Shown here one piece after another: positions 28,109 through 47,148 of a stretch of DNA of 50,138 bases. A program made the position numbers and the translations under genes. Below the pieces are notes generated by a model that worked only from the letters and a program-made list of their open reading frames with translations, was not told the origin of the DNA and did not search any database. Location: the IMG/VR virus record IMGVR_UViG_3300021376_000090, positions 1 through 50,138 of that record. One strand, given 5' to 3'. The number at the start of each line of letters is the position of its first letter. Position 1 is the first letter of the stretch. The stretch is from a virus.

Positions 28109-29848
28109 ATGTCTGAGTATCTTGGAATTAATTTGGAATTTGCAGACTTTGATAGATTGCTTAGGCAGGATGAATTGATGGAACAACCGGTATCTATTGA
28201 AACATTTGTACAAGAAAAGAAATATCTTGGCTTGCCGCCATTGTCTAATATACAGCTTGAAATAGTTCGACATAGTACGCAAATATTTAAGCTGCCTACT
28301 TTGCAAAAGCTTATGGGTGAACATAATGGTCTCGAATACTATAAAAAATATACTGATAATGAAGTAATTTGTATGTTAGGTAAGGGGTCTGGCAAAGACC
28401 ACTGTAGCAGAATTTCAATCGCATATACGGCTTATTTGCTACATTGTTTACGCGATCCTCTCAGTTACTATGGTAAAGCAAACGGCGTATATGTTGACCT
28501 ACTAAACCTAGCTGTAAACGCACAACAAGCTCAAAGGGTTTTCTTTGAGCCGTTAAAAAACCTATTGCTTGGATCTCCGTATTTTAATAGCGTTGGATTT
28601 GAACCCAGAGTGTCAGAAATCTTTTTCTTTTCCAGACCAGTAAGGCTATTCTCCGGTCACTCAGAAAGTGAAGGGTGGGAAGGTTATGAAGTATTAACTA
28701 TAGTCTTAGACGAGATCTCTGCTTTTAAAACAGATATCGAATTAAAAGGTGATACAAGAGCTAAAGGGTCAGCTTCTGCAATATATAATATGAGCAAGTT
28801 ATCTGTGATGTCACGATTCCCAGAAGTAGGTAAAGTAATTTTATTGTCATTCCCTAGATATAAGGGTGATTTTATTCAACAAAGATATTTTGGTGCTCAG
28901 GAAAAAAACGAGCCAAAAACATGGTATATAAAAGCAGCTACCTGGGAAGTCAATCCAACAATTAAAAGATCTGATCTTGAGTCTGAATACATAAGAAATC
29001 CTATTGAAGCTGCATCGAGATTTGAATGTGAACCACCTACAATGGAAGACGCATATTTTAGAGATGAAGATTTAGTTAGAAAAGCATTTATGTATGCAGA
29101 TGATCCGGTTGATGAAGATGGAAGGTTTCATAAATGGTTTAATAATTCAGATGGTCACAGAAGATTTATACATGTTGACTTAGGATTTAAAAGAGATAGA
29201 TCAGCTCTTTGTTTAACACATTGTGCTGGATTTAAAGAAGTTAAAACTTCTATGGGTGTAGAAAAACTTCCGGTAATAAATGTTGATTTAATATATTCTT
29301 GGGAAGCCGCACCAGGCGAAGAAATTAATTTTGCATCTGTGAGGCAAATGATAGTCGATTTGTGTAGAAAGTTTGATGTAGCTAAAGTTACATTTGATAG
29401 ATGGCAATCTATTGAAATGATTCAGAGTTTGAGAGCACAAGGAATCGCAGCTGATTTTCATAGCGTAAAAAAGACTGACTATGACACATTAATGACATCT
29501 ATATACGATACAAGATTAAGAGGATATTGGAACGAGATATTGGTAAATGAAGAACTGCTTAAGCTTAGATTATTTAGTAATAATAAAATTGATCACCCAT
29601 CTGGTGGTTCAAAAGATATGGCAGATGCTTTGGCTGGTTCGGTATTTAATTGTGTAGAAAATATGGCGGTTGAACAAGAAGTAGAAATAGAGGTGTTAGA
29701 TTTTTCTATGCAGTCAGAGATTGATGAAGATCTCGAAGAATTTGGTACAGTAAGCGTGTATAATCATAATTTGAGAGAATTCACGCCCGGATATAAAGAA
29801 TTAAATGTACCAGGACAGGAGGTGGGGAAGTGGATAGAATCGATATAA
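28109..29848 (+). CDS. terL: Terminase large subunit
   Basis: 579 residues. ATPase: Walker A-like GKGSGKD (91-97) and Walker B TIVLDEIS (D201, E202). Nuclease of the RNase H type: HVDLGFKRD (D357), VTFDRW, and the C-terminal DMADALAGS acid. It cuts the concatemer and drives DNA into the prohead. The ribosome site is weak, so coupling to the short frame ahead may matter. The gene is far from the tail genes here, so head genes must lie outside the window. Confidence 0.93.
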   Translation: MSEYLGINLEFADFDRLLRQDELMEQPVSIETFVQEKKYLGLPPLSNIQLEIVRHSTQIFKLPTLQKLMGEHNGLEYYKKYTDNEVICMLGKGSGKDHCSRISIAYTAYLLHCLRDPLSYYGKANGVYVDLLNLAVNAQQAQRVFFEPLKNLLLGSPYFNSVGFEPRVSEIFFFSRPVRLFSGHSESEGWEGYEVLTIVLDEISAFKTDIELKGDTRAKGSASAIYNMSKLSVMSRFPEVGKVILLSFPRYKGDFIQQRYFGAQEKNEPKTWYIKAATWEVNPTIKRSDLESEYIRNPIEAASRFECEPPTMEDAYFRDEDLVRKAFMYADDPVDEDGRFHKWFNNSDGHRRFIHVDLGFKRDRSALCLTHCAGFKEVKTSMGVEKLPVINVDLIYSWEAAPGEEINFASVRQMIVDLCRKFDVAKVTFDRWQSIEMIQSLRAQGIAADFHSVKKTDYDTLMTSIYDTRLRGYWNEILVNEELLKLRLFSNNKIDHPSGGSKDMADALAGSVFNCVENMAVEQEVEIEVLDFSMQSEIDEDLEEFGTVSVYNHNLREFTPGYKELNVPGQEVGKWIESI

Positions 29849-31331: not shown

Positions 31332-31733
31332 TCTGAAATCAGTTACGAAAATGGATTTTTTTCTCAGACCCTTAGACCCTGAAAAATATATACTCAAATT
31401 TTCCTGTAAATAGAAAAAAACACGGGTAGTTCATATATCATATTATTTAGTAATACTCGGTAAGCGTATACTAAATTTCGTTTATTATTGACTTCATAAC
31501 GAGCCCCGCGAAATAGTTATTTACATAGCTGTCCGATCATTCTTTAATAAAGCCTTTATGATGGCTGTTTAGCCCTGTGCGATTGCCTATGCGAAATAAT
31601 CTTTTTAAAATATTTATTTGCTGTGAGGTTGCTGTTTTTTATTCTATGCCTTACCCTTGCCCCCACGACCACGATTACGCCCACAAATAACTATCCAAAT
31701 AAATAAATCAACAACCAACGAAAGGTATTTATT
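31332..31733 (+). other. 402-base non-coding junction between gene blocks
   Basis: No supported gene. It is AT-rich at the start, with a C-rich stretch at 31648-31683. Seen features: GCGAAATA twice (31508-31515 and 31590-31597); ATAAAG-C-CTTTAT within a wider ATCAT...ATGAT hairpin near 31537-31562; and TTGACT at 31488-31493 without a good -10 at the right distance. It separates the packaging block from the small-gene region. A control region or origin is inferred only from position and repeats. Confidence 0.5.
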
Positions 31734-34246: not shown

Positions 34247-34439
34247 AATTGACAGTAACGAAATTATAAAGTTTGCTGAATTAATGCAGCAAGCAATTGC
34301 TCAGGAATCATCAAATACAAAAGTTGTAATGGAGATATTGGAAAATCTTAAAAACTCCACATCTAATTTGTCAAATAGAGTATCTCTATTAGAAGATCAA
34401 ATTATTAACATAGTCAAAACTTTAAAGGAGAATCAGTAA
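34239..34439 (+). CDS. Coiled-coil small protein
   Basis: 66 residues, GGAGACC before the ATG. Almost wholly one amphipathic helix with heptad spacing (LENLKNSTSNLSNRVSLLED, then QIINIVKTL), predicting a coiled coil. Similar small coiled coils occur widely in phages without known role. TAATG overlap with the next gene. Confidence 0.58.
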   Translation: MSEIDSNEIIKFAELMQQAIAQESSNTKVVMEILENLKNSTSNLSNRVSLLEDQIINIVKTLKENQ

Positions 34440-34819
34440 TGAAAAACCACTACAATAAATTCAAGACAACCACTGATGGGCAACATCTTATGGTTTTGGA
34501 AAAGCAATGGTTATTTGATAATGCAATTAAAAATGATGGATTTACGCCAAGACCAGTGCCAGATAAATACTTTGAATATGTATTTCTTGGAACTATTAAA
34601 GAATATTTGAATACTGATTACAACATTACTCAGTATAAATGGAATAGCAATAATCGAGACAATGTTAAATTTATTCGTAAATGGAAATTTGCAATTCAAA
34701 TGATTTATCCATACATTGGTTCAGATGATAGAAAACTTGGAAAACACGTAATCTCATTATATTTAGTTGGTAATGATGATGAAGTTTTTCAATATCGTAG
34801 AATCTGGGAAGAACTATAA
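34439..34819 (+). CDS. Unrecognised 126-residue protein
   Basis: Start in TAATG overlap with AAGGAG upstream. Aromatic- and Lys-rich (KQWLFDNAIKNDGFTPRPVP, FIRKWKFAIQMIYPYIGSDD). Its stop codon lies inside the 5' arm of the long inverted repeat that begins at 34815, so this gene ends directly in the structured element. Confidence 0.6.
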   Translation: MKNHYNKFKTTTDGQHLMVLEKQWLFDNAIKNDGFTPRPVPDKYFEYVFLGTIKEYLNTDYNITQYKWNSNNRDNVKFIRKWKFAIQMIYPYIGSDDRKLGKHVISLYLVGNDDEVFQYRRIWEEL

Positions 34820-35002
34820 ATAGAATAGAAATAGGCTAGCCCTCTCCTTTCACGGGTGAAGGGAAATATGTATGATTGTAATGATCATATTAAAGTATTT
34901 GTTATCATAATGATAACTATATCTGTAAGGCTTAGTTGGGTTTGTACTTACAGATGAAGACACGGGTATAAATGTTTCCCGCCTATTTCTATTGTATTTA
35001 TA
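34815..35002 (+). ncRNA. Structured element closed by a 22-base inverted repeat; candidate non-coding RNA
   Basis: Bases 34815-34836 and 34981-35002 are inverted repeats matching at 21 of 22 positions. Between them lie further helices: CCTTTCA-CGGG-TGAAGGG (34847-34864), a stem using TATGAT/ATCATA (34871-34889), GTTATCA-TAA-TGATAAC (34901-34917), and ATCTGTAAG/CTTACAGAT (34921-34929 with 34947-34955) with a 17-base loop. GGGAAA (34861-34866) can also pair with TTTCCC (34975-34980). CACGGGT occurs twice (34851 and 34961). No gene lies inside. It could be a free RNA, a 5' leader of the gene at 35033, or a small inverted-repeat element. The name is unknown. Confidence 0.65.
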
Positions 35003-35032
35003 ATATCAATAAACAACGACAGGAGAAAAGCA

Positions 35033-35440
35033 ATGCCAACAGATTATTTAGAATATGACACAGTTCCTTCTAATGAACCTTGTGTACAAATTGGTCATGA
35101 AAATTATTGGAATCTAGCAACTTTAGAAGCCGATGTATTGATTGATCAATTGAAGCGAACATTTCCACAAGCATACCCACTTGGTTTAGACTTCAAAAAA
35201 ACATATAATGACCACGATTTTGGTAAGTATATAGGTATCAAGATAGTTTATAATTCAGACATTCTAGACCACGAACTTGTGTATGATATTGATAAAAATT
35301 TCCCGGAACAATGGGATGAAGTATCATTGAATAAATTAATGAAGGTGGAAGATTACTTCTTTATGATAAAAAAGCGTCTTGAAATTCAAAATGATAGAAC
35401 AGATGAAATAGCATTTAACCAACTAGCGAGGGGGTATTAA
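35033..35440 (+). CDS. Unrecognised protein after the structured element
   Basis: 135 residues with CAGGAGAA ribosome site and the recurrent ATCAATAAACAAC leader motif. Acidic, with YLEYDTVPSNEPCVQIGHEN at the start and a helical end. It begins 31 bases after the inverted repeat, so the element may control it. No motif recognised. Confidence 0.62.
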   Translation: MPTDYLEYDTVPSNEPCVQIGHENYWNLATLEADVLIDQLKRTFPQAYPLGLDFKKTYNDHDFGKYIGIKIVYNSDILDHELVYDIDKNFPEQWDEVSLNKLMKVEDYFFMIKKRLEIQNDRTDEIAFNQLARGY

Positions 35441-46634: not shown

Positions 46635-46685
46635 AATACCACGCAAAATAAATAAGTGCTGTGACACTTAATTTTGCGTGGTATT
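46635..46685 (+). terminator. Long inverted repeat before tRNA-Arg; likely terminator or processing hairpin
   Basis: AATACCACGCAAAAT pairs with ATTTTGCGTGGTATT and the stem continues as TAAGTG/CACTTA, with a 3-base bulge on the 5' side and loop CTGTGA. About 21 base pairs in all. Only a short T stretch (TATTTTG) follows on this strand. It sits 3 bases before tRNA-Arg, so it could be an RNase processing signal. Confidence 0.6.
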
Positions 46686-46687
46686 TT

Positions 46688-46764
46688 GTTTCCGTAGCTC
46701 AATTGGATAGAGCAATAGACTTCTAATCTATAGGTTATAGGTTCAAATCCTATCGGAAACGCCA
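46688..46764 (+). tRNA. tRNA-Arg(TCT), with encoded CCA
   Basis: Acceptor GTTTCCG/CGGAAAC, D arm AGCTC...GAGC, anticodon stem ATAGA/TCTAT with loop CTTCTAA (anticodon TCT at 46722-46724, reading AGA), T arm with GTTCAAATC, discriminator G and an encoded CCA end at 46762-46764. AGA is frequent in this phage and usually rare in Actinobacteria, so the tRNA serves phage codon use. Confidence 0.95.
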
Positions 46765-46782: not shown

Positions 46783-47148
46783 ATGAAACATATATTAATC
46801 AAAACCACAAATGAAATTTCAATTTATGAAGGTAAGTACAATGAAGGACTTACGCTTGATGAATGTAATGATTTAATTAATGGTTGGATTGAAGTTGTAA
46901 ATTTAGACAGAGGAGAAAATTCCTTCTTCCCGGATAATACAGTTATAGTTGTTGATGAAGAAGGTTTAATAAAAGGTTTAGACATAAACTTTTTTGGAGC
47001 ATGGAGAACAAATAAAATAATTGTTGGTGATGTTATTTTAACAAAAGGTGACGGAGGAGGTGAATTGATTGGATTTAATGACGATGAAATTATTAGTATT
47101 ATGCCATTAGTGAGAAACTATCAAGCAATTATCAACTCTGGAGAGTAG
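46783..47148 (+). CDS. Unrecognised 121-residue protein
   Basis: AAAGGAGAG directly before the ATG. Acidic, beta-rich: WIEVVNLDRGENSFFPDNTV, then GLDINFFGAWRTN and IIVGDVILTKGDGGGELIGF. The pattern (positions, Asp/Asn turns, GD-I) is like a phage family with DUF3846-type look, though I am not sure. No catalytic motif. Confidence 0.58.
   Translation: MKHILIKTTNEISIYEGKYNEGLTLDECNDLINGWIEVVNLDRGENSFFPDNTVIVVDEEGLIKGLDINFFGAWRTNKIIVGDVILTKGDGGGELIGFNDDEIISIMPLVRNYQAIINSGE

Follow-up and report, generated by a model that had tools for sequence, protein, structure and literature searches.

The DNA analysed here (the window, a virus record of IMG/VR with 50,138 bases) contains 188 bases closed by a long inverted repeat, and the question that this locus raises is whether such an element is an RNA kept by selection on its fold, a product of chance or a mobile repeat, and what it might do for the phage. 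The element is a conserved structured RNA, neither a chance fold nor a mobile repeat. The virus encodes a WhiB factor (Pfam E 3.7e-21), which has served as a marker for phages of actinobacteria (PMC6802176), and the protein encoded at 28109-29848, which gave no match in Pfam, has ~41% identity to proteins annotated as large terminases in Streptomyces phages of the Stanwilliamsviridae. The viruses carrying this RNA appear to infect (freshwater) actinobacteria.

The preliminary description had reported 22-base arms with one mismatch at the ends of the element, and pairing beyond chance. Both were borne out: 21 of 22 positions are paired, the best match in a list of 11 inverted-repeat pairs from the window, and the RNA of the + strand has a folding energy of -60.9 kcal/mol (z -5.93), as good a value being reached by none of 200 shuffles. 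The - strand folds as well (z -6.43; 0/200 shuffles), as is to be expected of a long inverted repeat. The GGGAAA/TTTCCC pairing seen between the arms also exists and corresponds to helix P2 of the conserved structure (Table 1). The repeated CACGGGT, for which an internal contact had been proposed, is present at 34851 and 34961, but neither repeat nor contact is kept in relatives. Nor is the element the only sizeable gap of the region, as had been stated, there being at least two such gaps; the stretch 31332-31733 does not contain an ORF of at least 50 aa either. This second gap of 402 bases contains an AT-rich inverted repeat of its own (31602-31620 / 31696-31714).

Table 1. Positions of the RNA, its parts and the tRNA-Arg locus in the window
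Feature	Position	Strand	Basis or remark
Whole structured RNA, group A form	34815-35002	+	188 bases; starts at the stop codon of gene 34439-34819
P1 5' arm	34815-34836	+	inverted repeat and covariation
P1 3' arm	34981-35002	+	inverted repeat and covariation
P1a hairpin	34839-34857	+	arms 34839-34842 and 34854-34857; covariation
CTCCTTTC in P1a loop	34844-34851	+	8 bases identical to the 16S rRNA 3' tail
CCTTTC within P1a loop	34846-34851	+	common to 17/17 loops compared
P2 5' arm (GGGAAATAT)	34861-34869	+	covariation
P2 3' arm (ATGTTTCCC)	34972-34980	+	abuts P1; covariation
P3 hairpin	34870-34890	+	arms 34870-34877 and 34883-34890; covariation
TAAA, conserved single-stranded joint after P3	34891-34894	+	by eye
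P5 arm	34895-34969	+	base helix GTAT 34895-34898 with GTAT 34966-34969; by eye
P4, group A hairpin inside P5 arm	34901-34917	+	74.3% of cells paired (group A alignment)
Second group A hairpin inside P5 arm	34920-34956	+	arms 34920-34929 and 34947-34956
tRNA-Arg(TCT)	46688-46764	+	no such RNA 3' of the tRNA
DUF3846 gene	46783-47148	+	

Close homologues (group A) were retrieved by way of the gene upstream of the element (six records) and by way of the terminase (locus L068, among the best 80 loci). Group A comprises eight records including the window, with six distinct RNAs, each of which begins where the same upstream gene has its stop codon. L068 lacks the genes at 35033 and 35443, and another small gene lies downstream of its RNA. 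In the alignment of the six sequences, 96.0% of the cells are paired, and both sides have changed in 17 of 58 pairs, compared with 7.3 in shuffles (0/500 as high). Further pair types were not above shuffles in this alignment (65/500 reach the observed count). When the partners were slid by 1 to 3 columns, pairing fell to 36.9-48.3%.

More distant homologues (group B) were found with a covariance model built from group A (R1), which matched records G002, G003 and G005 at E 1.6e-12 to 7.2e-12 and G013 at 1.2e-11, and with a gapped pattern of the core, which returned 25 viral stretches: 11 already known, 4 due to chance and 10 from new records (G040-G049), the latter being checked for a pairing P1 arm. 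The pattern TAGGCTAN{12,30}AAGNGAAATATG returned 14 stretches, of which 11 were already known and three (L240-L242) were chance matches by eye; of 44 viral stretches with GGTGAAGGNAAATATGTA, six were group A and the others, by eye, chance or coding. The group B alignment contains 11 of the 12 distinct sequences (L164 was omitted, being nearly identical to L162), with 94.0% of the cells paired and both-side changes in 21 of 37 pairs (0/500 shuffles). A second model (R2), built from these 11 sequences alone, recovers group A at E 7.5e-11 to 1.5e-7. Thus, the model of each group finds the other, and by this test groups A and B share ancestry. In the joint alignment of 18 sequences, which was made by R2 and, being fitted to the structure, leans towards it, 95.1% of the cells are paired, both-side changes occur in 25 of 37 pairs (16.1 in shuffles) and covariation is 0.551, compared with 0.205 in shuffles (0/500).

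The core reads, in order, P1, UA, P1a, AA, P2 abutting P1, P3 abutting P2, AAA, P5 and AA (joints read by eye; the third is AAG in L159). Its overall shape is a rod of P1, P2 and P3 with the side arms P1a and P5, and it is kept by compensatory changes. In P2, all cells are paired, with changes from A-U to G-C and C-G, whereas pairing is weaker in the modelled P5 helix (80.8%). Compared with group B, the P5 arm of group A has two extra hairpins inside; its closing helix, GUAU/GUAY by eye, reads GUAU/GUAC in L008, L009 and L068 (by eye). A folded RNA with a multi-branch junction had been proposed at the outset, and compensatory changes in homologues, the test named beforehand, are found; they indicate that the RNA constitutes a structured family of its own. 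A chance fold is ruled out by shuffled folding together with covariation. Two further observations concern the P5 arm: an AGCCC/GGGUU pseudoknot was considered by eye and not counted, and the P5 loop of group B often contains UUCAU, complementary to an AUGAA gene start (e.g., L140, L141, L143 and L151; also L156, L159 and L162).

The element had been called undescribed, and Rfam, in which the 6C family is included, indeed does not match it: at gathering scores, only three tRNAs were detected over the window; at E up to 10, positions 34700-35100 gave nothing credible (three sub-threshold matches, two of them snoRNAs); and five loci with group B or reduced forms (see below) gave no match at E up to 1. 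No tRNA or tmRNA was detected over the element by ARAGORN or Rfam, and no promoter or terminator signal in the scan exceeded shuffles. As a blastn query, the window element matched 215 records, of which the 20 listed have E 2 to 7 and cover 19-22% of the query; neither L139 (E up to 0.1) nor a stretch of G010 (E up to 0.001) matched named phages in blastn, and R2 found nothing in the Streptomyces phages Yaboi and Coruscant. A 2021 survey covered structured RNAs in human microbiomes (PMC8040213); the titles and abstract openings returned by searches of the open-licence literature, a body smaller than the full literature, contain no description of this RNA. A small ORF was discarded as an explanation, the 29-codon frame starting at ATG 34868 meeting an early stop in L008 (by eye). 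A cellular origin was likewise rejected: R2, which works on virus records, matched 0 of 296 genomes of one phylum in a search with stricter filters and no positive control of its own, and 72 pattern stretches in genome contigs were judged to be chance, the best two among the matches listed having 13 of 14 arm pairs (G-U allowed) and, by eye, lacking the rest of the structure.

Outside group A, the RNA has a distinctive genomic place. In 12 of the 14 group B records, ARAGORN detected a tRNA-Arg(UCU) gene beside the element, and in the remaining two (G045 and G049) a tRNA pattern is found there. The RNA lies 3' of the tRNA, at a distance of one or two bases (L151, L162 and L164) to approximately a hundred (L140, L152 and L155); the exception is L159, where it lies 5' of the tRNA, two bases apart. 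A tRNA-Arg pattern matched 20 of 40 records, including three of group A (G006, G007 and G039), and neither these three nor the window carry such an RNA at tRNA-Arg. Of the 20 records without a tRNA match, one (G001) has the group A RNA; the other 19, mostly fragments, gave none. Outside group A, all 17 records with tRNA-Arg(UCU) carry the RNA or a reduced form beside the tRNA, but ten of these 17 came from a pattern demanding CCTTTC, so that the fair count is seven of seven terminase relatives (G002, G003, G005 and G013, plus G008, G009 and G010, the tRNA flanks of these last three having then been read).

The reduced form, present in G008, G009 and G010, has ∼75 to 105 bases and consists of P1, a hairpin with the loop CCCCCUUUC and one further stem. 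G041, G043 and G049 have a second copy of similar form, placed between the tRNA and the main RNA. R2 matched the reduced form at E 0.029 in G009 and at 0.16 to 0.39 in the tandem copies, and gave no match for G008 and G010, so that the link by this model is not convincing. A pattern of the reduced form returned nine stretches, of which only the two already known were real. The fold of the reduced form L288, part of P1 missing, has z -0.97, compared with -3.60 to -5.39 for six group B members; given this weak energy, the reduced form is grouped tentatively with the family by shape, place and loop, not by energy. A second, shorter RNA resembling it, with the loop CCCCUUUC, was seen between tRNA-Arg and the main RNA in L152 (3923-4013) and L155 (8142-8232).

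The RNA is not tied to one neighbouring protein gene. Since it lies beside tRNA-Arg outside group A and elsewhere in group A, a trans-acting RNA gene is favoured, one of the two modes of action proposed originally; the places are unrelated, and the downstream gene differs in one group A relative (L068). From covariation and place, it is close to certain that this is a conserved phage RNA, linked to the tRNA in most records and independent of its neighbours. Other elements were seen near these loci. In the window, a conserved long hairpin, preceded by CCCCCT, is located just 5' of tRNA-Arg (46635-46685) and recurs in G006, G007 and G039 (L264, L270 and L268), where stem letters have changed and still pair by eye; this hairpin may be a further small RNA or else a terminator. 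Stretches that contain TACTCAAGTT and AACTGGAGTTCAGTA and are related to one another recur just downstream of the RNA in L155 and L156 and (partly) upstream of it in L140; these might be another small element.

The part of the RNA that points to a function is the loop of P1a. The CCUUUC common to all 17 loops compared is part of the 3' tail of actinobacterial 16S rRNA, i.e., its anti-Shine-Dalgarno end. The ten loops that were retrieved without the CCTTTC pattern share with the 16S tail an exact stretch that is, at its longest, 7.3 bases on average, compared with 4.68 when shuffled (0/2000), but R1 and R2 carry CCUUUC and four of these ten "unbiased" loops are therefore only partly unbiased. 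The tail TGGATCACCTCCTTTCT is found exactly in 21 of 61 genomes of one actinobacterial order and, at the one locus checked, forms the 3' terminus of a complete 16S match. The 5' side of the loop varies (CUCCUUUC, CCCUUUC or CCCCCUUUC). Against 50 hand-listed ribosome sites, the window loop has a mean binding energy of -6.31 kcal/mol, and -2.52 against coding stretches; shuffled loops bind the same 50 sites almost equally (-5.01), 2 of 200 reaching the observed mean.

Whether the loop is accessible differs between members. Upon free folding, the mean unpaired probability of CCUUUC was 0.46 in the window, 0.03 in L008, 0.92 in L009, 0.44 in L010 and 0.77 in L068, and between 0.44 and 1.00 in eleven members outside group A (16 members examined); three of the five group A members examined are predicted to have a largely paired loop. 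The competing partner in group A is mainly a purine-rich stretch just downstream of the loop; in the window, accessibility is low because CCUUUC can pair with GAAGGG there (34846-34865), and this pairing excludes P1a and P2. The alternative could be a two-state switch, or it may simply hide the loop; the open P1a form is supported by covariation.

How does this RNA relate to known systems? Nearest by mechanism is 6C/B11 of mycobacteria, a structured actinobacterial RNA whose C-rich loops repress by pairing with ribosome-binding sites (PMC10470900), an action that complementarity predicts for the phage RNA; 6C/B11 differs in having two cytosine loops and in being a cellular gene, whereas the phage RNA has one CCUUUC loop and another architecture. 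The c4 antisense RNA of phages P1 and P7, whose loops pair near a ribosome-binding site (PMC12197685), is likewise a phage RNA acting via loops, loop action being predicted for the present RNA; c4 acts on one mRNA (ant), whereas the present RNA has a generic loop and a variable place. Nearest by place are RNAC and RNAD of T4 (139 and 119 bases; also called species 1 and 2 stable RNAs), which lie directly behind a tRNA-Arg gene and to which PMC3014915 and PMC9697503 assign no role. This likeness holds for group B and the reduced forms, not for the group A form of the window; RNAC and RNAD have other folds and are not homologous by these tests, the best match of R2 in the whole T4 genome (E 0.226) lying away from both.

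By analogy with 6C/B11, we infer, at somewhat less than even confidence, that the phage small RNA pairs through its CCUUUC loop with Shine-Dalgarno sites. Where adjacent to tRNA-Arg(UCU), the RNA would be cotranscribed with it, and processing of the tRNA end would release one end of the RNA. The CCUUUC of the P1a loop would then imitate the free 3' tail of host 16S rRNA and base-pair with Shine-Dalgarno sequences such as GAAAGG or AAGGAG, and this pairing would block ribosome binding on host messages, chosen phage messages or both during infection. Anti-Shine-Dalgarno action is the best-supported, though still putative, step. A bolder version, which we regard as unlikely, is that the RNA, set free by tRNA processing, is a dedicated mimic of the 16S tail and reprograms the initiation of translation throughout the infected cell; the reduced forms of 75-105 bases would be its minimal working part, and the RNAs behind tRNA-Arg, including T4 RNAC and RNAD, maybe a convergent class with a common purpose.

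Among the rivals, the one that survives best, although still rather doubtful, is a structured RNA that binds a protein or the ribosome, CCUUUC serving as a binding site (as a decoy of either the 16S tail or a tail-reading factor), not as an antisense sequence. The whole architecture is kept, including the single-stranded UA, AA and AAA joints and not just the loop, and the constancy of CCUUUC exceeds what would be required to pair with Shine-Dalgarno sites, which are variable. A protein partner is, however, purely putative, and the 5' side of the loop is variable, as pairing with variable sites would allow. It is improbable that the RNA serves the processing of the tRNA operon or the end of transcription, P1 and a U run ending the tRNA transcript or guiding its maturation: the P1a loop, P2, P3 and P5 would be superfluous in a terminator, and the RNA precedes the tRNA in L159. 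The position beside tRNA-Arg in 14 of 14 group B records would fit this role, as would the five or more T close after P1 in seven of eight group B members examined, but such a T run was found in none of the five group A members examined, which are also far from the tRNA.

Slightly less probable again is control in cis, the loop pairing with the ribosome site of the downstream gene, which the preliminary description had considered for the gene at 35033. The downstream site is not consistently the best match for the loop: when ranked among all called genes of its locus, it came first in 2 of 12 loci, the window (1/67) and L156 (1/19), but ranked 10/27 in L008, 12/26 in L009, 5/25 in L010, 3/6 in L139, 2/6 in L140, 2/6 in L141, 14/19 in L151, 9/23 in L152, 4/15 in L155 and 17/18 in L162 (L068 and L167, having no called downstream gene, were left out of the ranking). 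A DUF3846 gene follows the RNA in L139, which would suit a cis element, but another gene does so in L068 and the tRNA in L159. The small inverted-repeat mobile element named as the main alternative is hardly tenable, for despite the long terminal inverted repeat and the different places of groups A and B, there is one copy in the window, the place is constant in all group A relatives found, and the inner helices have undergone compensatory changes.

According to a 2025 review, phage-encoded trans-acting RNAs are an underexplored class. The present family adds an RNA that is backed by covariation and has one constant loop, and it leads to the concrete and testable hypothesis that a phage RNA mimics the tail of ribosomal RNA. 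If the anti-Shine-Dalgarno reading is true, this loop may shut down translation initiation on some messages.
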